Shown: positions 41,791 to 52,014 of the stretch, one piece after another
Layout of the letters: each line of letters starts with the position of its first letter
How positions within the stretch are numbered: position 1 is the stretch's first letter
NCBI GenBank assembly: GCA_019359395.1
Contig: JAHHHK010000044.1
Location: 1 to 53,805, forward strand
DNA length: 53,805 nucleotides
Direction: 5' to 3'
Origin: Komarekiella atlantica HA4396-MV6
Lineage (GTDB): Bacteria; Cyanobacteriota; Cyanobacteriia; Cyanobacteriales; Nostocaceae
The notes under the pieces: generated by a model
The model's input: only the letters and a program-made list of their open reading frames with translations
What the model was told of the DNA's origin: nothing
Database searches by the model: none
Translations under genes and position numbers: made by a program

Positions 41791-42148
41791 TCCTGTTCGC
41801 TCTCACTGTACCCGCGCACAAACCAAGCCACGTAGCTTGACTTTACAGGGGCAATCTGATCATGAAGTCCTCCAAAAAGCAAGAGAGCGACAAAAAACTG
41901 AACAGTTTCAACAACAGTATGCACTGCGCTCAGGCATTGAAGGAACTATTTCTCAAGGAATCCGCGCCTTTGAAATGCGCGATTGCCGTTATATTGGGCT
42001 AGCTAAAACTCATCTACAGCATATTCTGACTGCTGCCGCAATCAATCTCAGTCGAGTTTTCGCGTGGTTGGAGCATATCCCAAGAGCTAAAACTCGCTCC
42101 TCACACTTTGCAAGGCTGGCAGACTTTACTTTACTGTGTGCTAGATAA
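41786..42148 (+). mobile_element. IS1182-family transposase C-terminal fragment
   Basis: From about 41789 the frame reads CPVRSHCTRAQTKPRSLTLQ, then RERQKTEQFQQQYALRSGIE, GTISQGIRAFEMRDCRYIGL and AKTHLQHILTAAAINLSRVF. This is the Cys-rich segment and final catalytic-Glu region of IS1182 transposases. The N-terminal two thirds are missing. Confidence 0.85.
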
Positions 42149-42196
42149 TACTTGTTTAGACTGTTGCTAAAACATCAATAAAATTTAAGTCTGATT

Positions 42197-42512
42197 CCGT
42201 GTATTACATGGAAAAGCATCGTCGTTTCTAGTTAAACTTACGATGTAATACACGGTAAAGTTGATGTTAAAACGGGATATTCAGGGAAAGTTTGCGCTCA
42301 AGAATGATGATTACCGTGAAGTACGTTCTTTGCGACTGACTGATTATACCTGGAAGAGCTTAGGGATAGCCTCTGAGTGTTTGGGTTTAACCCGTGCTGA
42401 CTATTTAGAATACATTGTTAGGCATAAAACCACCCCTTGTATTACACGGGAAGGCTCAGAATTTTTAGCTCCCCATCAAGGGGAAAACGAACATCAACCA
42501 AGTATTACACGG
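42197..42512. repeat. Four 15-bp palindromes, consensus CCRTGTAWTACAYGG
   Basis: The sites are CCGTGTATTACATGG (42197-42211), CGATGTAATACACGG (42241-42255), CCTTGTATTACACGG (42435-42449) and CCAAGTATTACACGG (42498-42512). The first two lie upstream of the start at 42264, the second only eight bases before it; the other two are inside the coding region. Such a family of sites is expected for an autoregulating DNA-binding protein or iteron-like binding. Confidence 0.7.
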
Positions 42513-42704
42513 CAGAGTGGATTTCCTTTAACATCTAATACGGAGAGCGAAAGACAGTCTGTTGCGTTGCCAACGATAACAGAACTTGAAATTTTACGTG
42601 ACCGTGTTTTATCCCAACTGAAGTTAGGTAAGCAAGCTACTGGGTATAAAACTGCTCAGAAGGTTCTCAATCAGTTCATTACTGAACTAATCGGTTCAGT
42701 TTAG
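42264..42704 (+). CDS. Probable small DNA-binding protein, autoregulation candidate
   Basis: The 146-residue product has an N-terminal segment REVRSLRLTDYTWKSLG followed by LGLTRADYLEYIVR, which resembles ribbon-helix-helix or related cyanobacterial DNA-binding proteins (strand, helix, TRADY turn, helix). A polar middle contains PCITREG and PSITRQSG, encoded by two copies of the palindrome. The C-terminal part is helical (EILRDRVLSQLKLGKQ). The start at ATG 42264 places a palindrome over the leader, suggesting autorepression. The family is not certain. Confidence 0.65.
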   Translation: MLKRDIQGKFALKNDDYREVRSLRLTDYTWKSLGIASECLGLTRADYLEYIVRHKTTPCITREGSEFLAPHQGENEHQPSITRQSGFPLTSNTESERQSVALPTITELEILRDRVLSQLKLGKQATGYKTAQKVLNQFITELIGSV

Positions 42705-42781
42705 CTGTTTGGGGAATTCGCCAACGGTATCCCACCGTAGGTGATCGCTCCCTACTTAAGAAACATCCCTGTGAAGCTTTA

Positions 42782-42796
42782 TAATAATGATTATCA
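42782..42796. promoter_or_regulatory. Zur-like box before hemB
   Basis: TAATAATGATTATCA matches a TGATAATNATTATCA-type Zur palindrome except at one position and lies 16 bases before the ATG of the hemB paralog. Zinc-loaded Zur would block transcription here. Confidence 0.8.
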
Positions 42797-42802
42797 TTTT
42801 AA

Positions 42803-43840
<1,038 letters not shown>

Positions 43841-43923
43841 TCGGGGACTGGGAAAGATTTTACCCAATACCCCATGCCCTATTTTCAGAATCACCTTGCT
43901 GGAGTGATCTTCTCCATATAGAA

Positions 43924-43938
43924 TGATAACTATTATCA
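43924..43938. promoter_or_regulatory. Zur-like box before the FAD-binding gene
   Basis: TGATAACTATTATCA is an almost perfect palindrome of the Zur type, 25 bases upstream of the ATG at 43964. It follows a repeat of the form ACCCAATACCCCATGCCC (43862-43880). Confidence 0.85.
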
Positions 43939-43963
43939 TAAAAGCCAGATTGTCTCTCCAGCA

Positions 43964-45214
43964 ATGCAATTTACGACCACTGTTCCCGAAACAATTGACC
44001 TGGCTATTGTTGGTGCGGGGCCTCATGCTCTGACCTTAATTACCCATCTGCTGCAAAAACGACAGTCTATCAGGGGGAAATTCTCGGTATTTGACCCCAG
44101 TGGCAGGTGGATGAGTCGCTGGCAACAACAATTTGCGGCTTTGGAAATTCCGCATTTGCGTTCTCCCGCAGTGCATCATCCTGACCCTAATCCTTTCGCT
44201 TTACGGAAATTTGCCGAATCTCGTCCTCATGAGTTATTTCCTCCCTATGATTTACCAGGAACGCGACTATTTGCGGATTTTTGTCAAGATGTGATTCGAG
44301 TTCGGCAGTTGCAAGACCAAATTATCCCCTTGGCAGTCAAGAGTATTGAACCCTTACCTCATCACTTGCGTCCTCGTTTCCGCCTCTGCTTGCAAGACGA
44401 ACAAGTGGTAATTGCGCGGCGAGTAGTGTTGGCAACTGGTAACGCTCAAATTCAAATACCTGATTGGGTAAACCAGATACAAACAGCCTACCCACAAGAT
44501 AGACTTTGCCACTCACAAACAATTGACTTACGAAAATTGCATCTAATAGGTAAGAGAGTATTAATTGTAGGTGGTGGCTTGACAAGTGGACATTTGGCAC
44601 TAGGTGCTATTGCTCGCGCTGCAAAGGTGCATTTGCTGATTCGGCGGCAATTAGTAGAAAAGTTGTTCGATGCGGAACCGGGTTGGTTGGGACCAAAGTA
44701 TCTAAAGGATTTTTTTGCTCAATCTGATTGGGAGCAACGGGTAATGATGATTCAGCAAGCTAGAAATGGTGGCTCGATGACACCAGCGATCGCTACCCAA
44801 CTACGGCAACAAGCACGCAATGGTAAAATCAGAATTGATGAAAACTGTCAAGTAGTCAAAGCTCAATGGTTGGGTGAAAATTGGCAGGTGGAATGTAGTG
44901 ACGGTAGTCAGCATGAGTGCGATTACATTTGGCTTTCCACTGGCACTAAATTCGATGTCACTACTGAACCCTTACTAAAAGACATTCTCGCCGCTTACCC
45001 CATTCCCATCGTTAAAGGTTTGCCAGTGTTAGATACTTGTCTACGTTGGCCTGGCTGCGAATTATTCATTATAGGTGGTTTAGCTGCCTTGCAAGTAGGG
45101 CCAACAGCACGGAATTTATCAGGTGCGAGAATGGCTTGTGAAAAAATCGTTCCAGCGATTGTCAAGCCCAGTGTAGCTCTTTCCCACACGTTCAGTGGAC
45201 TACAAGCAAGTTGA
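43964..45214 (+). CDS. FAD/NAD(P)-binding protein
   Basis: The 416-residue flavoprotein has an N-terminal FAD loop (LAIVGAGPHALTL), a central NAD(P) motif (VLIVGGGLTSGHLAL near 205-219) and a C-terminal WLSTGTKFD segment. The architecture recalls lysine/ornithine N-monooxygenase-type and flavin-containing proteins. The reaction is unknown; in zinc-stress clusters such proteins might make a metallophore or modify a ligand, but this is a guess. It has its own Zur-like box. Confidence 0.8.
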   Translation: MQFTTTVPETIDLAIVGAGPHALTLITHLLQKRQSIRGKFSVFDPSGRWMSRWQQQFAALEIPHLRSPAVHHPDPNPFALRKFAESRPHELFPPYDLPGTRLFADFCQDVIRVRQLQDQIIPLAVKSIEPLPHHLRPRFRLCLQDEQVVIARRVVLATGNAQIQIPDWVNQIQTAYPQDRLCHSQTIDLRKLHLIGKRVLIVGGGLTSGHLALGAIARAAKVHLLIRRQLVEKLFDAEPGWLGPKYLKDFFAQSDWEQRVMMIQQARNGGSMTPAIATQLRQQARNGKIRIDENCQVVKAQWLGENWQVECSDGSQHECDYIWLSTGTKFDVTTEPLLKDILAAYPIPIVKGLPVLDTCLRWPGCELFIIGGLAALQVGPTARNLSGARMACEKIVPAIVKPSVALSHTFSGLQAS

Positions 45215-45378
45215 CCAAAAACGGGCGTTGCTGAACTGAAGTATGAAATTGAAAAATTCGCTTTTTCTTTCCTCTTACTCTGGAGTCCCTCTGCGTGAAA
45301 TAAATTCATGCCCCTAATCAGCAACGCCCTATCTTTTCTCCATCCAGATTGCACCATCAAACTTTTTTTACGCTACTA

Positions 45379-45393
45379 TGACAACGATTCTCA
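45379..45393. promoter_or_regulatory. Zur-like box before the thrS/COG0523 chimera
   Basis: TGACAACGATTCTCA matches the Zur palindrome with three changes and lies 12 bases before the ATG at 45406. It is weaker than the boxes at 42782 and 43924 but identically placed. Confidence 0.65.
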
Positions 45394-45405
45394 TTCTTTT
45401 AAAAT

Positions 45406-46611
45406 ATGGTCAGTTCCTTAACCCAGTCCCAGGACAACCTAACCCAGTACAACACTGAGAAACTGGTGCGGATTCGTCATACCTGCGCCCATATAATGGC
45501 AATGGCAGTGCAGAAGCTATTTCCAGGGACTAAAATAGCAACTGGCCCAGTCACAGAAAACGGGTTTTACTACGACTTCGATTGTCCAGTCAGCATCACT
45601 CCCGATGACTTGGACAAAATTGAGCAACAGATGCGGCGGATAATCAAAGCGAATTTACCTATCATCCGCGAGGAAGTGCAACGAGAGGAAATTCGCGCCG
45701 AAATTAACGAGTTGAACGAACCATTAAAGTTAGAAATATTAGACCGCATTCCAGAAGGAGAAATAATCACCCGTTACTTTATTGGTAGTCCCCATACAGG
45801 TAAACCAGAGTCTTCATTGTTTGTTGCAGACATTCAACCAGCAAGTAACTATTGGTGGGACTTGTGTGCAGGGCCTCACATTAACTTTACAGGTGAAATT
45901 GCTCCTGATGCCTTTAAATTGTTGAATATTGCCGGTGCGTATTGGCAAGGAGATGAAACCAAAGCCCAACTGCAACGCATTTATGGTATAGCTTGGGAAA
46001 CAAAAGAACAACTACAAGCTTACCTTAAACAAAGAGAAGAAGCCCTACGCCGCGATAAAACAGACCTCGTAACTTCAGAAAAACTTGAAGAAGTAGAAAA
46101 TCTTATCCATGATCTAAAAAATGGTGCAAAAATTCTGCACACTAAACATGGAGAAGTGGCGTTACCATTAATTTTAAATGTGGGTTTAACTCCAAAAGAT
46201 GAGTATACTGCTAATGATATAGAAGATCCTCACGAGGATGAACACCATCATCATGACAATGACCACGACCATCATCATGAGCATCATCATGAGCATCATT
46301 CACATCATTTAGAAAATGATGGATTTGTTTCGATTTCTTTTCAAAGCGATAGACCATTTGATGTTCATAAATTTGAGAACTTTCTCACTGAAGAGATGCC
46401 ACAGAATGTGTTTCGAGCAAAGGGAATTTTGTGGTTTAGTGATAGTGAATTGCGCCATATTTTTCAACTGAGTGGGCCTCGCTATAGCTTACATGCTGAT
46501 GAATGGCAAACTCCACGTAAAAATCAAGCAGTTTTTATTGGTATAAAGTTGGATATTAACCAAGTTTACTCACAACTTAATGGATGTTTGGTAGGATTAA
46601 TTAAGTGTTAA
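45406..46611 (+). CDS. Chimera: threonyl-tRNA synthetase editing domain fused to COG0523 (CobW) C-terminal half
   Basis: The 401-residue protein joins two families. Residues ~15-216 are the ThrRS editing region: HTCAH (His25, His29) and DLCAGPH (Cys154, His158) are the editing-site residues, and the domain ends at the REEALRRD helix that normally leads to the aminoacylation domain. From residue 217, KTDLV starts the COG0523 part: the tail of the GTPase NKxD motif, a loop with 16 His in residues 276-301, then the CobW C-terminal domain (SFQSDRPFDVHKFENFL). Missing are the ThrRS catalytic core and the GTPase P-loop and metal motif. The frame is intact and a Zur-like box lies upstream. It looks like an in-frame deletion fusing neighbouring thrS2- and cobW-type genes; trans-editing and zinc binding may survive. 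Confidence 0.9.
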   Translation: MVSSLTQSQDNLTQYNTEKLVRIRHTCAHIMAMAVQKLFPGTKIATGPVTENGFYYDFDCPVSITPDDLDKIEQQMRRIIKANLPIIREEVQREEIRAEINELNEPLKLEILDRIPEGEIITRYFIGSPHTGKPESSLFVADIQPASNYWWDLCAGPHINFTGEIAPDAFKLLNIAGAYWQGDETKAQLQRIYGIAWETKEQLQAYLKQREEALRRDKTDLVTSEKLEEVENLIHDLKNGAKILHTKHGEVALPLILNVGLTPKDEYTANDIEDPHEDEHHHHDNDHDHHHEHHHEHHSHHLENDGFVSISFQSDRPFDVHKFENFLTEEMPQNVFRAKGILWFSDSELRHIFQLSGPRYSLHADEWQTPRKNQAVFIGIKLDINQVYSQLNGCLVGLIKC

Positions 46612-46693
46612 GAAATGCCTGATTTAGTTAATAGTCTCACAGGTATGAAACTATTAACTAATTTATTCATTTATACTAATCAAACAAAGAATA

Positions 46694-47347
46694 ATGACTC
46701 TATCGATTCGTCCTGATATAAATTCTGCTGCTCAAGTGGTTTCATCTTTATCTACTCAGCAATTACCAACTGTTACAGAAGCAGAAATGGCGCAGGCTGT
46801 ACGTACATTGCTCATCGGATTAGGAGAAAATCCTGACAGAGAAGGATTGAATGATACTCCCAAACGAGTTGTCAAAGCTTTGCAGTTTCTCACCAAGGGA
46901 TATCATGAATCTTTGGATGAACTGTTAAATGGGGCAGTATTTACAGAAGATGCCAACGAAATGGTGTTAGTCCGGGACATCGATATTTTTAGTTCTTGTG
47001 AACATCATATTTTGCCAATAATTGGCCGCGCTCATGTTGCCTATATTCCTAATGGCAAGGTAATAGGATTATCTAAAATTGCCCGTATTTGTGAAATGTA
47101 TGCCCGACGTTTGCAAGTGCAAGAACGTCTCACTATACAAATTGCTGATGCACTGCAAGGTTTACTCAAACCCCAAGGGGTTGCAGTAGTAATAGAAGCA
47201 ACTCACATGTGTATGGTGATGCGTGGTGTGCAAAAACCCGGTTCTTGGACTGTTACTAGTGCAATGCGTGGTGTGTTTGCGGAAGATGCACGGACTCGTG
47301 AGGAGTTTATGAATTTGGTACGCCACAATGTTAGTTTTCACTCTTAA
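46694..47347 (+). CDS. folE: GTP cyclohydrolase I, FolE1 type
   Basis: The 217-residue enzyme converts GTP to 7,8-dihydroneopterin triphosphate for folate or queuosine synthesis. Zinc ligands are visible: Cys102 (SSCEHH), His105 and Cys173 (HMCMVMRG). It is therefore a zinc-type enzyme; its place in a Zur-type cluster suggests an extra copy made in zinc shortage. No clear box lies in the 82 bases upstream, so it is probably cotranscribed with the chimera gene. Confidence 0.92.
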
Positions 47348-47436
47348 GTTTCGGCTAGAGTAGATGTTTATTTAGCATCTGCTATGTAGAGACGAGAAAT
47401 TTCTTGTCTCTACCTTCTTAATTTAGTAATCATCAT

Positions 47437-47454
47437 AATAATGTAGTCATTATT
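47437..47454. promoter_or_regulatory. Inverted repeat before hisI (possible degenerate Zur site)
   Basis: AATAATG and CATTATT form perfect 7-bp arms around TAGT, 39 bases before the ATG at 47494. It is AT-rich and does not fit the Zur palindrome well, so the assignment is weak. Confidence 0.3.
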
Positions 47455-47493
47455 TATTAGCTCTTGATGATGATTTTAGCTGTAGAAACGATT

Positions 47494-47820
47494 ATGAATT
47501 TGAAGTTTAACGAGCAAGGTTTAATTTCTGCTATAGCCCAAGATTACCGTGATGGTACTGTCTTGATGATGGCTTGGATGAACTGGGAATCAATTCAAAA
47601 AACATTATCTACAGGCGAAGCTCATTATTGGAGTCGTTCTCGCTCCCAATTATGGTATAAAGGCGCAACATCTGGACATGTTCAAAAGGTAAAAGAGCTT
47701 TTTTACGACTGTGACGGAGATACCATATTGCTAAAAGTTGAGCAAATTGGTGATATTGCCTGTCACACTGGTGCAAGAAGTTATTTTTTTAATGCTGTGC
47801 AAATTTATCCTAAATCTTAA
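47494..47820 (+). CDS. hisI: Phosphoribosyl-AMP cyclohydrolase paralog lacking one zinc cysteine
   Basis: The 108-residue single-domain HisI (no HisE part) hydrolyses phosphoribosyl-AMP in histidine synthesis. The metal motif YDCDGD (Asp72, Cys73, Asp74, Asp76) and ACHTG (Cys90) are present. The third zinc Cys, expected in RSCF, is Tyr97 here (RSYF). This suggests altered or reduced zinc dependence, fitting a low-zinc paralog. Upstream TTG/ATG codons at 47464-47470 would add ten atypical residues. CysS follows after 14 bases. Confidence 0.88.
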   Translation: MNLKFNEQGLISAIAQDYRDGTVLMMAWMNWESIQKTLSTGEAHYWSRSRSQLWYKGATSGHVQKVKELFYDCDGDTILLKVEQIGDIACHTGARSYFFNAVQIYPKS

Positions 47821-47834
47821 TTTTGGAATTGATT

Positions 47835-49373
47835 ATGACTCTGACAATTTACAACACTCTCACTCGTCACAAAGAACCCTTCCAGCCGCAAGAACCAGGT
47901 AAGGTAAAAATGTATTGCTGTGGTGTCACGGTGTACGATTATTGTCATTTGGATCATGGACGTTCTTACATTGTTTGGGATGTAATTCGCCGCTATTTGC
48001 AATGGCGGGGTTATGAAGTCCAATATGTGCAAAATTTTACTGATATTGATGATAAAATTCTCAATCGAGCTAATGCGGAAGGAACTTCCATGCAAGAGGT
48101 ATCTGAGCGTTACATCCAAGCTTATTTTGAGGATATCAGACGTTTAAATGTAATGGATGCTTCTAATTATCCCCGCGTCACGGAAAATATTTGGGCTATT
48201 CACCAGTTAATTCAGGAATTAGAGAAAAAAGGCTACGCTTACGCCATTGATGGAGATGTTTATTACAAGGTGCAAAACTTCTCTGAGTATGGCAAACTTT
48301 CCGGGCGTTCTTTGGATGATATGCAAGCTGGGGCGAGTAATAGGGTAGACTCAGAAGACCCATCTCTTAAAAAGAAACAAAACCCGTTTGATTTTGCTTT
48401 ATGGAAGGGTGCTAGACCAGGGGAACCAGCGTGGGATTCGCCTTGGGGTGTTGGTCGTCCGGGGTGGCATATTGAATGTTCGGCGATGATTCGCTCTCAG
48501 TTAGGTGATACGATTGATATTCACGGCGGTGGTGGCGATTTGGTATTTCCTCACCATGAAAATGAAATTGCTCAATCGGAAGTTATTACTCTTAAGCCAC
48601 TAGCACGTTACTGGATGCACAATGGCATGGTGACAGTGAACAGTGAAAAAATGTCTAAATCATTGGGTAATTTTACAACGATTCGTCAATTACTCAATCA
48701 AGGTGTTGAATCTAATGTACTTCGTTTATTTGTTCTGCAAGCCCATTATCGCAAACCTTTAGATTTTACAGAAGATGCGATCGCTTCTGCTGAAAATGCT
48801 TGGAAAACCCTTAAAGAAGGTTTGTTTGGCTACCAGTACGGTCAAGGGCTGGGGACAAATCAATTCAAAATTCAAAATGACGCTCGCGGACTCGCTAACG
48901 CTGCGCTAACAAAATTCAAAATTAAAGAACTTCTGCCTCCTACCTCTTCCCATGCCCAACGCCCAATACCCCATGCCCAACCCTATGTTGAAAGCTTTGA
49001 AAGGGCGATGGATGATGACTTTAACACACCAACTGCATTAGCTGTTCTTTTTGAACTGGCAAAAGAATTACGTCGTCAGGGAAACCTTTTGACTCATCAA
49101 GGTAAAACCGATACTTCCTCAGAAACGATTAAGCAGCAGTGGCAAACCCTAGTTCACTTGGCACAGGTTTTAGGACTAGAAGCAGTACCAAAAGATGAAA
49201 CTGATGCCAAACAAGAACGTTTAAGTAATGCAGACATTGAAACTTTAATTCAACAACGGCAGAATGCACGTAAACAGCGCAATTTCGCCGCTTCAGACCT
49301 GATACGCGACCAATTGCAAGCAGTGGGAGTAACTCTCATCGATAAACCAGATGGTACAACTGTGTGGCATTGA
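47835..49373 (+). CDS. cysS: Cysteinyl-tRNA synthetase with repeat-derived insertion
   Basis: The 512-residue class I synthetase charges tRNA-Cys. It has HLDHG (HIGH motif, about 38-42) and KMSKS. The zinc-site residues are also present: Cys in the MYCCG segment, Cys in WHIECSAM, and His/Glu in FPHHENEIAQSE. About residues 341-383 are encoded by two cyanobacterial repeat-type sequences (48855-48926 and 48945-48981) inserted in frame before the PYVESFERAMDDDFNTP helix. This accounts for much of the excess over the ~460-residue norm. It lies 14 bases after hisI. Confidence 0.92.
   Translation: MTLTIYNTLTRHKEPFQPQEPGKVKMYCCGVTVYDYCHLDHGRSYIVWDVIRRYLQWRGYEVQYVQNFTDIDDKILNRANAEGTSMQEVSERYIQAYFEDIRRLNVMDASNYPRVTENIWAIHQLIQELEKKGYAYAIDGDVYYKVQNFSEYGKLSGRSLDDMQAGASNRVDSEDPSLKKKQNPFDFALWKGARPGEPAWDSPWGVGRPGWHIECSAMIRSQLGDTIDIHGGGGDLVFPHHENEIAQSEVITLKPLARYWMHNGMVTVNSEKMSKSLGNFTTIRQLLNQGVESNVLRLFVLQAHYRKPLDFTEDAIASAENAWKTLKEGLFGYQYGQGLGTNQFKIQNDARGLANAALTKFKIKELLPPTSSHAQRPIPHAQPYVESFERAMDDDFNTPTALAVLFELAKELRRQGNLLTHQGKTDTSSETIKQQWQTLVHLAQVLGLEAVPKDETDAKQERLSNADIETLIQQRQNARKQRNFAASDLIRDQLQAVGVTLIDKPDGTTVWH
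48855..48981. repeat. Dispersed repeats inside cysS
   Basis: The first part has AATTCAAAATTCAAAATGAC, GCTCGCGGACTCGCTAACGC and a closing AAAATTCAAAATT; the second has CCCATGCCCAACGCCCAATA-type heptamers. A similar ACCCAATACCCCATGCCC block is at 43862-43880. Both keep the cysS reading frame. Confidence 0.7.
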
Positions 49374-49413
49374 TCGAGTCAGCAATTTTCTTGCTACTAT
49401 ATTCCAAATTATA

Positions 49414-49428
49414 TAAAAATGATTATCA
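49414..49428. promoter_or_regulatory. Zur-like box before the P-loop protein
   Basis: TAAAAATGATTATCA matches the Zur palindrome with two changes. It covers an upstream ATG at 49419, so the coding start must be the ATG at 49437. Confidence 0.75.
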
Positions 49429-49436
49429 TTACATTT

Positions 49437-50210
49437 ATGTCTGTACCAAACATTATTGTCGTTGCAGGTTCGTCTGGGGTTGGAAAAACTACCTGGGTTT
49501 GTCAACAGATGCGAGATATTGCAAATGTTGACAAAATAATTTATTACAGCCCTGGTACTGGGACTGTTCCCGTTGACCAAACCCGCATAGCTTCTGAATT
49601 TCCTGATTTACAGGTCTTTAGCGATATTCAACAAGTCGAATTTCTCAACCAAATACCCTCTTCAGATGCGGTTTACATTGAGTGGGGATTTTATCTGGAG
49701 TTGGCATCTTTAGCACAAATATTAGATAATCTGACTTACCGTACCGTAGCAGTTCTACCATCCGACCTCAAAGACTCCGAATATTACGCTTGGGCGAACG
49801 AGATTGTACGCGGCGCACCAACCCAAGCCAGTAATGCTGAAACTTTATGGCGGGCGGCAAGCAGCGGTCAAGTAATTGACGAAAATAGTCTGGAAGAATT
49901 TTGGTACGAAATCACCCACGGTGCTTACGGTATTGTCACCCGCGCCAAAGGCATTTTTGACGTGAACGATGGTAGGTCACTTTACTGTGATTTTGTCGCT
50001 GGCGTTCCCCAAACAGATTTTCTGGAATTAGACCTACCACGCTACTTAGAAGGTAGACCTCAACGTTTCAGTGGACTAGAAGTGGTAGGAAAAAACTTGG
50101 ATGAAGCAGCTTTAAGGCAAACCTTATCAGATTGCTGTTTATCTGACGCAGCCATTTTGCAATACCAACAACAAGTAAAAGAGATTTTATTAGAAGGGGA
50201 ACCAGTGTGA
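49437..50210 (+). CDS. Divergent COG0523-like P-loop protein
   Basis: The 257-residue protein begins with a Walker A loop, VVAGSSGVGKTT (Gly11-Thr18), and has a C-terminal part (HGAYGIVTRAKGIFDV, SLYCDFVAGVPQ) resembling the CobW C-terminal domain. The CxCC metal motif of COG0523 GTPases is absent and the usual NKxD guanine motif is not evident. It may be a metallochaperone-like protein that has lost standard metal binding. Its own Zur-like box overlaps the leader. The stop overlaps the start of the next gene by four bases. Confidence 0.65.
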   Translation: MSVPNIIVVAGSSGVGKTTWVCQQMRDIANVDKIIYYSPGTGTVPVDQTRIASEFPDLQVFSDIQQVEFLNQIPSSDAVYIEWGFYLELASLAQILDNLTYRTVAVLPSDLKDSEYYAWANEIVRGAPTQASNAETLWRAASSGQVIDENSLEEFWYEITHGAYGIVTRAKGIFDVNDGRSLYCDFVAGVPQTDFLELDLPRYLEGRPQRFSGLEVVGKNLDEAALRQTLSDCCLSDAAILQYQQQVKEILLEGEPV

Positions 50211-51016
50211 AAATAGCCGTCATTTCATGTATTCATGGCAATTACGAAGCCTTGGATGCTGTATTACTAGATATTGACCAGCACTCATGCGAAAAAATCT
50301 TTTGTGTTGGCGATTTGGTAGGATATGGGCCGCATCCCAATGCAGTCGTTGCTCAAATTCGTTCTTTAGATATTCCCACCTGCGTCGGCTGTTGGGATGA
50401 AGATATTGTGGAAGGTTTGAACGCCTGCGATTGCAGCTATCCCTCTTTATTGGCAGAAAAAAGAGGAATACAGGCTCATGAGTGGACTAATAAGGAAATC
50501 TACCCAGAAAATCGGGAATTTTTAGCCCAATTACCCTACAGTCTGAAAGAGGGCAATTTAGCTTTTGTTCACGGTAGTCCTCATAGTAACCATGAATATC
50601 TGTTACCTGAACTAGACGCTTTTGTAGCACTAGAGCGCGTACTTTCCACAGATGCAGATGTGCTTTTTTGTGGTCATACTCATGTACCTTATGCTCGAAA
50701 TCTTGATGCTGGTCAACTACAAATCAGCGTTGGTAGAGGAGAAAAAGTAGACGAAATCCAGTTCATCTCACCTCTAAAACGAATTGTAAATGTAGGTTCA
50801 GTGGGAGAACCCCGACATGGACGACCAAATGCAACTTATGTAATTTACGATACAAACACTCAAGACATTAAACTGCGGGAAGTACCCTACGATTATCAAA
50901 AAACCTGTGCGGCGATTATCGACAAGGGTTTACCTGCAATTTTTGCTTGGCGTTTAGCGCATGGGTTGGAATATGCAGAACGAGCAGATGACCCAACTCA
51001 TGTTTGCACAAGGTAA
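50207..51016 (+). CDS. Metallophosphoesterase with Cys at metal-ligand positions
   Basis: The 269-residue calcineurin-like phosphoesterase keeps VGDLVGYGP (Asp36), VHGSP (His122) and GHTH (His157, His159). The first motif DxH is Cys8-x-His10 (SCIHGN), and the GNHD Asn is Cys62 (GCWDED). Two Cys at metal positions suggest a changed metal preference. It is translationally coupled to the P-loop gene by a 4-base overlap and followed by a degenerate paralog. A phosphatase or phosphodiesterase acting in zinc limitation is possible. Confidence 0.85.
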   Translation: MKIAVISCIHGNYEALDAVLLDIDQHSCEKIFCVGDLVGYGPHPNAVVAQIRSLDIPTCVGCWDEDIVEGLNACDCSYPSLLAEKRGIQAHEWTNKEIYPENREFLAQLPYSLKEGNLAFVHGSPHSNHEYLLPELDAFVALERVLSTDADVLFCGHTHVPYARNLDAGQLQISVGRGEKVDEIQFISPLKRIVNVGSVGEPRHGRPNATYVIYDTNTQDIKLREVPYDYQKTCAAIIDKGLPAIFAWRLAHGLEYAERADDPTHVCTR

Positions 51017-51077
51017 TCTCTCTCCTCCTCTGCGCCCCTTTGCGCTTTCCTTCGCGTTCCTCTGCGTTTAAAAAAAT

Positions 51078-51839
51078 ATGAATAAATGGGCAATTTTGAG
51101 TGGAATTGAAGCTAACTTGGCGGCTTATGAAGCCGTGATGGCAGATATTAAGCGTCAAGGTAATAGCGTAGAAGCTTTGTATATTTTGGGCAACTTGGTA
51201 GGCCCAAGACCAGAAGCAGAAAAGTTGGTGGAACGAGTGCTTAACCCACCTCATGGAGAATTAGAACCTTTAATTTGTAAGGGATGGTGGGAAGAACAGT
51301 GTTTGATTTTGCATGGTCTGGCGCCAACTGGAGATGCCCCTGAACTCATAGCAAAATATGGGGGTGATACAGTAAAACTACTATGGGATAGTGTTTCTGG
51401 ACAAACTGTACAATGGTTGCGATCGCTTGACTTTGGTTTTTTTGAATTAGATTGTTTATTAATCCACGGTTCAACGGTAGGTGTAGACGATGAACTAACC
51501 CCAGAAACTCCCCCAATTCAAATGCTTGATAGACTCTCAAGGATGCAAGCAAATAACTTGTTCTGCGGTCGTTCTGGTTTAACTTTTCAGTATCAGTTGC
51601 AAACTGGTTCCATCACTAGTGCATTAACTACCCTTGATAACCAAGCATCTCCTCAAACTGTCACCGTTACACCGCGTCAAGTAATTGGAGTGGGGAATGT
51701 GGGACGGACACCAGGTCAAGCTACCTATACTCTCTACAACCCTGGCACGAATCAGGTGGAATTCAAGACTCTGAACTACGGAAGTAGTAAGGGATTTCAA
51801 AGCCAGCGCCGAGTTACAGAATCAAAATTTTGCGTGTAA
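51078..51839 (+). CDS. Metallophosphoesterase paralog with lost metal ligands (pseudoenzyme)
   Basis: The 253-residue protein aligns along its length with the preceding one, but each motif is altered. DxH becomes SGIEAN, GDLVG becomes GNLVG, GCWDED becomes GWWEEQ and GHTH becomes GRSG; only IHGS is kept. It is therefore unlikely to hydrolyse phosphoesters and may act as a partner or regulator of the active paralog. The frame is intact and the fold-determining residues are conserved, which argues against a decaying gene. Confidence 0.8.
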   Translation: MNKWAILSGIEANLAAYEAVMADIKRQGNSVEALYILGNLVGPRPEAEKLVERVLNPPHGELEPLICKGWWEEQCLILHGLAPTGDAPELIAKYGGDTVKLLWDSVSGQTVQWLRSLDFGFFELDCLLIHGSTVGVDDELTPETPPIQMLDRLSRMQANNLFCGRSGLTFQYQLQTGSITSALTTLDNQASPQTVTVTPRQVIGVGNVGRTPGQATYTLYNPGTNQVEFKTLNYGSSKGFQSQRRVTESKFCV

Positions 51840-51999
51840 TCAATTGCGAAGGCGATGGTGCATATATTGCCAAGGCTTGCCAGATATTGGCACAGTGCAA
51901 CCATCCTTTTAGGATAAGCGATCGCTCTTTTGTGACAAATTCAAAAATCTAACATCCAATGGGCAGAGGGAAGTACCTGTGAAAGACGATATGATATTT

Positions 52000-52014
52000 A
52001 GATAATGATTCTCA
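52000..52014. promoter_or_regulatory. Orphan Zur-like box
   Basis: AGATAATGATTCTCA matches the Zur palindrome with two changes. No plus-strand gene starts within the next kilobase; on the minus strand it overlaps the end of the frame at 52012-52329. It may mark the former promoter of a lost Zur target at the edge of the cluster. Confidence 0.65.

Follow-up and report, generated by a model that had tools for sequence, protein, structure and literature searches.

The open reading frame at 45406..46611 (+ strand) of the window, by which we mean the whole 53,805-nt stretch of DNA that was analysed, raises the question of whether a ThrRS editing domain joined to the C-terminal half of a CobW protein is a working protein or the scar of a deletion. 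An earlier note, made from the sequence alone, had described the frame as an in-frame chimera of a ThrRS editing domain and a COG0523 metallochaperone. This description holds: the ORF is open over 401 aa with no internal stop or frameshift, and tRNA_SAD (residues 149–193) and CobW_C (PF07683, residues 307–395; 80.6 bits, cut-off 22) were the only Pfam domains found in it, both above their curated cut-offs. The N end of the chimera showed 88.7% identity to the thrS2 product of the relative G002 over 221 aa (residues 1–221), and the C half showed 84.4% identity to the G002 CobW over 180 aa. Judged from these alignments, both matches lie far beyond chance.

The N half (45406..46053, +) corresponds to residues 1–216 of a T2-type ThrRS, as shown by its identity to G002 thrS2 and by the tRNA_SAD match, and comprises the editing domain. 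The HxxxH and C...H motifs of the N2-domain editing site are present, and His25, His29, Cys154 and His158, all listed as kept in the earlier note, align with the G002 T2 enzyme and with ThrRS-1 of the same genome. The 20-residue insert a (codons 128–147; 45787..45846, +) occurs in the chimera and in the G002 T2 enzyme and is not present in the ThrRS-1 of the same genome. The reported loss of the aminoacylation core was also confirmed. The alignment to thrS2 is confined to the N-terminal part and ends at residue 221 (244 with looser scoring), the class II catalytic core and the anticodon-binding domain are missing, and TIGR00418 scored 144.8 bits, under its cut-off of 383.65.

The switch between the two genes had been placed at residue ~217 inside the NKxD motif, and the alignment puts it there. 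In the junction codon 217 (GAT; 46054..46056, +) the G is derived from thrS2 (GAC), the T from cobW (AAT, the N of NKTD), and the A is common to both. The guanine-specificity motif was not kept, NKTD having become DKTD. The C half (46057..46593, +) is the last part of a COG0523/CobW protein, from the K of NKTD to its old end, as given by the G002 cobW alignment and the CobW_C match. CobW residues 1–170 are missing, and with them the front part of the G domain; we take this lost part to have held the P-loop and the CxCC metal site. The C-terminal domain and the His-rich loop (46231..46308, +) are retained, as the note had stated; the loop has 16 His in codons 276–301, and its length differs among relatives. 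At the 3′ end the cobW stop, TGA in G002, reads GGA in the window, and five residues (GLIKC) were added before a new stop (46594..46611, +).

The window is collinear with thrS2–cobW of G002 through the first base (G) of thrS2 codon 217, and the match restarts at the T of cobW codon 171. It is without 1891 nt of G002 sequence, a figure that gives the true length lost only roughly, because the thrS2–cobW spacing differs between relatives (190 to 646 nt in the five checked). One deletion in an intact thrS2–cobW pair would account for the ORF, and the comparison supports this well. The earlier note had proposed exactly such an origin from neighbouring thrS2 and cobW genes, and the intact pair in G002, the clean join and the Zur-type box before thrS2 all agree with it. 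The deletion, of ~1.9 kb, would have stripped thrS2 of its aminoacylation and anticodon parts and removed the intergenic stretch together with the front half of the cobW GTPase. If by chance, a join in frame is a one-in-three outcome.

The chimera lies in a cluster of genes of zinc-regulated type, all on the + strand. A hemB2-type ALAD gene (42803..43840) and a FAD/NAD(P)-binding protein gene (43964..45214) stand before it, with Zur-like boxes at 42782 and 43924, respectively. An open folE gene (46694..47347), a hisI paralogue (47464..47820) and an open cysS-type gene (47823..49373) follow; the last shares 94% identity over 344 aa with the cysS match next to the G002 thrS2–cobW pair. The Zur-like box upstream of the chimera, TGACAACGATTCTCA, is at 45379..45393 (+). 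As a yardstick for box-like sites we used TGATAANNATTNTCA, which we take to be the Zur-box consensus. The fourth base of the chimera's box is a private C; T stands at this place in each of the 16 other upstream regions that were aligned. The operator that had been called retained is therefore present but only nearly retained, and Zur regulation of the chimera may act through this box-like candidate site with its one private mismatch. HemB, HisI, CysRS and ThrRS are among the enzymes described as having paralogues in Zur regulons (PMC2770081).

Several other features of the surroundings were recorded. The gene at 49419–50210 encodes a protein of 263 residues that begins with a P-loop-like sequence (GSSGVGKTT) and matches CobW_C weakly (25.1 bits against a cut-off of 22); it has no NCBIfam match, and a match to it lies close to cobW in 6 of the 23 loci compared. 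A box-like site at 49414 overlaps the first codons of this gene, and a metallophosphatase-like gene comes next. Another box-like site, AGATAATGATTCTCA, at 52000–52014 has one mismatch to the consensus that we presume. Dolichospermum sp. DET69 and Trichormus variabilis have plasmid-borne clusters related to 42000–52000, and because of this the zinc-type cluster may be mobile.

The earlier note had suggested a search for homologs covering both halves across 46054, and none was found beyond the source genome among 217 family and 388 order genomes. A degenerate pattern of the join occurred in 1 of the 217 family genomes, the source genome itself, and an additional scan of genome contigs, from which the source record may be left out, gave 0 occurrences. 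A 61-residue junction peptide had matches in 7 of the 388 genomes of the order sample, over its whole length only in the source genome; the other six matches were partial-length and fell in cobW or thrS2 genes. Against plasmids, the peptide matched four records, the best places being 48–59% identical and annotated as threonine--tRNA ligase. Two candidate fusions were rejected. The apparent open frame of 584 in G125 has both halves, with stops lying between them, and the open frame of 402 in G110 runs to the end of its contig. On this sampling the join would not be conserved across species, unlike a gene for a separate editing factor. No account of such a chimera was found in the open-access literature among the titles and abstract openings listed. 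As to the loss of the chimera in relatives together with disabling mutations, which the note had held to speak against its reading, the relatives indeed do not have the join, but the frame in the window runs on without a disabling stop.

The loss of thrS2 is not restricted to the window. Long T2 matches (rows with E of 2e-276 or less) were counted by us at 56 places in 54 of the 217 family genomes, and five of the 56 had a stop in the matched frame, two of these five beginning at residue 71–75. The thrS2 genes of G138 and G170 have in-frame stops, and the G110 match is cut by a contig end. We examined nine other loci in which thrS2 is broken or gone: a second zinc-type locus of the same genome (L097, G000:C56) and eight loci of relatives (L040, L039, L044, L045, L046 and L094–L096). 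cobW is complete in all nine. G007 kept thrS2 residues 1–157 and 422–614 with many stops between, G125 matched over residues 1–155 and then had a stop, and in G166 only residues 19–39 remained. No thrS2 match was found at the G015 and G185 loci. The second locus of the source genome (positions 2910–4934 of contig C56) has a Zur-type box, and thrS2 scraps (residues 1–12 and 20–44), followed by complete cobW and folE genes. Short thrS2 scraps lie at the same place in the genus mates G084, G105 and G119; a T2 gene was found in 0 of the 4 other genomes of the genus, with short remnants in three of the four. The genus mates and C56 may share one thrS2-loss event. As the lesions of the window, G007 and G125 differ, at least three events are likely. 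Of 10 loci checked, 7 (G125, G015, G166, C56, G084, G105 and G119) have a Zur-type box before cobW, at a distance of 243–696 nt. None was found within 900 nt upstream of cobW in G007, G185 and the intact G002; G007 has a box upstream of its thrS2 fragment. From these loci we infer that thrS2 loss leaves cobW under the old promoter, the window being the case in which the deletion reached cobW.

The known system closest to the N half is ThrRS T2 of Anabaena PCC 7120. Its gene neighbourhood is similar and it has the 20-residue insert a at 128–147 (PMC4787780, PMC6103462), with C154 and H158 numbered as in the chimera (PMC4787780). The Anabaena thrS2 gene is described as part of a Zur-regulated operon, all4722 being a COG0523 gene and hemB2 and folE2 belonging to the same regulon (PMC4787780, PMC6103462). 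T2 is a full synthetase, however, whereas the chimera is without the catalytic and anticodon-binding parts. With the COG0523 metallochaperone GTPases (CobW/YciC/ZigA-like), Zur-linked members of which have been described (PMC2770081), the chimera has CobW_C and a His-rich loop in common; it differs by the missing front of the G domain and by DKTD for NKTD. Chimeras from bacterial gene fusion are known, for example from M. tuberculosis (PMC7671302); there, too, two genes gave one ORF, but as described they are different genes, and the chimera of the window is known from sequence alone. A further comparison is offered by Crenarchaeota. Their free-standing ThrRS editing proteins are a separate gene family and have a partner catalytic ThrRS. 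The chimera is likewise an editing domain without an aminoacylation core, but it is a join in one genome and is attached to a GTPase remnant.

Selection on the two halves was analysed with our own GY94-like codon model (F3x4). The N set had 217 of 218 columns and 16 sequences, namely those of the window, of 13 relatives whose N half is open (among them G138, whose thrS2 has a stop later on) and of the G007 and G125 fragments of 155 codons. The C set had 164 of 193 columns and 18 sequences after removal of gapped columns, the junction codon and the last six columns; among the homologues omitted from it were the cobW genes of G085, G170, G146, G171, G073 and G119. The terminal-branch tests kept kappa and the remaining branch lengths fixed at M0 values, and many tree nodes were weakly supported. 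On the terminal branch of the window the N half gave an omega of 0.27 against a background of 0.17 (difference p 0.31), and omega 1 was rejected (p 0.006). The C half gave 0.18 against 0.16 (difference p 0.81), with omega 1 again rejected (p 9e-6). The broken N fragments showed similar values, 0.31 for G125 (omega 1 rejected, p 0.002) and 0.35 for G007 (omega 1 not rejected, p 0.11), and the intact N half of G021 gave 0.32. Because the broken fragments are similar and the branch may largely predate the damage, the low omega is no proof of use after the join. A common neutral fraction of the branch above about 0.24 was rejected, so a neutral scar would have to be young. The window has two private changes in the N half (none at otherwise invariant columns) and nine in the C half (two at such columns). 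Among unfused genes the counts go up to 17 (6) and 14 (8) for the N set and to 10 (2) for the C set, and the private changes of the window are therefore within the range of unfused relatives, without excess. A selected protein and a young neutral relic would both fit the codon test.

The reading that we consider quite likely is that the ORF is a young, redundant deletion scar that is open by chance, and three other readings were weighed against it. The genome is a draft of 7.78 Mb in 80 contigs, the window being contig C39, so the join might be a misassembly of full thrS2 and cobW genes. The join shares one base only, and a repeat-driven collapse has no basis for this reason. A thrS2 search of the genome returned, besides the chimera, only ThrRS-1 (55%, on C2) and one weak hit of 32%, and C56 has mere scraps. 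The cobW search returned a complete gene on C56, the chimera and then more distant paralogues; the nearest CobW front half thus sits in the C56 gene, which is 79–81% identical to that of G002. The losses at related loci, moreover, make a deletion plausible. An assembly artefact is therefore very unlikely, as far as the sequence can tell. Use of the C-terminal CobW domain with the His loop alone, from an internal start or as a protein fragment and with the N half as a passenger, would fit the near-background omega of the C half. But this half begins within the G domain, its stop was lost, a complete CobW paralogue is encoded on C56, and P-to-R and I-to-V changes fell at otherwise invariant columns, although two changes of this kind are seen in some unfused relatives as well. 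The structure model of the C half (15 sequences) gave a pLDDT of about 77–92 over CobW_C and mostly under 50 for residues 217–304, the predicted G-domain remnant and His loop; it was the one usable model of five (the other four had means of 32–34), and a whole-chimera model (12 sequences) was set aside at a mean pLDDT of 38. We regard this C-terminal use as highly improbable.

A working chimera would, under zinc limitation, remove Ser from tRNA-Thr in trans or buffer zinc through the His loop and CobW_C, roles that the earlier note had put forward. The editing residues, the open frame and, nearly, the box are kept, the terminal-branch omega is low, and the CobW_C part (305–396) is predicted to fold alone, in the one model. 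In Anabaena some editing activity remains in T2, and editing in trans is performed by T1 subunits, so trans-editing is real in that system (PMC4787780); residual editing by the chimera is possible given its kept motifs. The source editing domain, however, has insert a, which lies near C154 and H158 and is described as impairing T2 editing, editing being improved upon its removal (PMC4787780). The genome no longer has a full T2 synthetase, from which the excess Ser-tRNA(Thr) would come, so the need for an editing helper looks smaller, and an intact ThrRS-1 with an editing domain is encoded at G000:C2. The CobW half is without its GTPase front and has an intact paralogue, the join occurs in no other searched genome, thrS2 is disrupted or lost at nine further loci (one of them in the same genome), and the omega of 0.27 is uninformative beside the values of the broken fragments and G021. 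The proposed functions are thus not supported, and a working chimera is improbable. A protein induced by zinc limitation and still under selection, in which what remains of a Ser-tRNA(Thr) deacylase is tied to the His-rich C-terminal domain of CobW, we hold to be decidedly doubtful; if true, it would couple trans-editing to zinc status.

Returning to the young deletion scar, the deletion would have struck a Zur-type cluster for zinc limitation that is redundant, and the single open frame that it left is most simply put down to chance. The lost cobW stop and the altered Zur-like box count in favour of this reading. The chimera is possibly transcribed, and its product, if made, would depend on the former thrS2 promoter and appear when zinc is limiting. 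As an impaired T2-type editing domain attached to a CobW C-terminal domain severed from its GTPase, this product most likely has little activity or none. The cell can probably do without it, since the genome has ThrRS-1 and another complete CobW at other places. An open frame with every active-site residue can still be a deletion product. The broader finding is that thrS2 was lost next to a kept cobW at several loci, most of them behind a Zur-type box, which suggests that the part of the operon retained under selection is the COG0523 protein and not the spare ThrRS.
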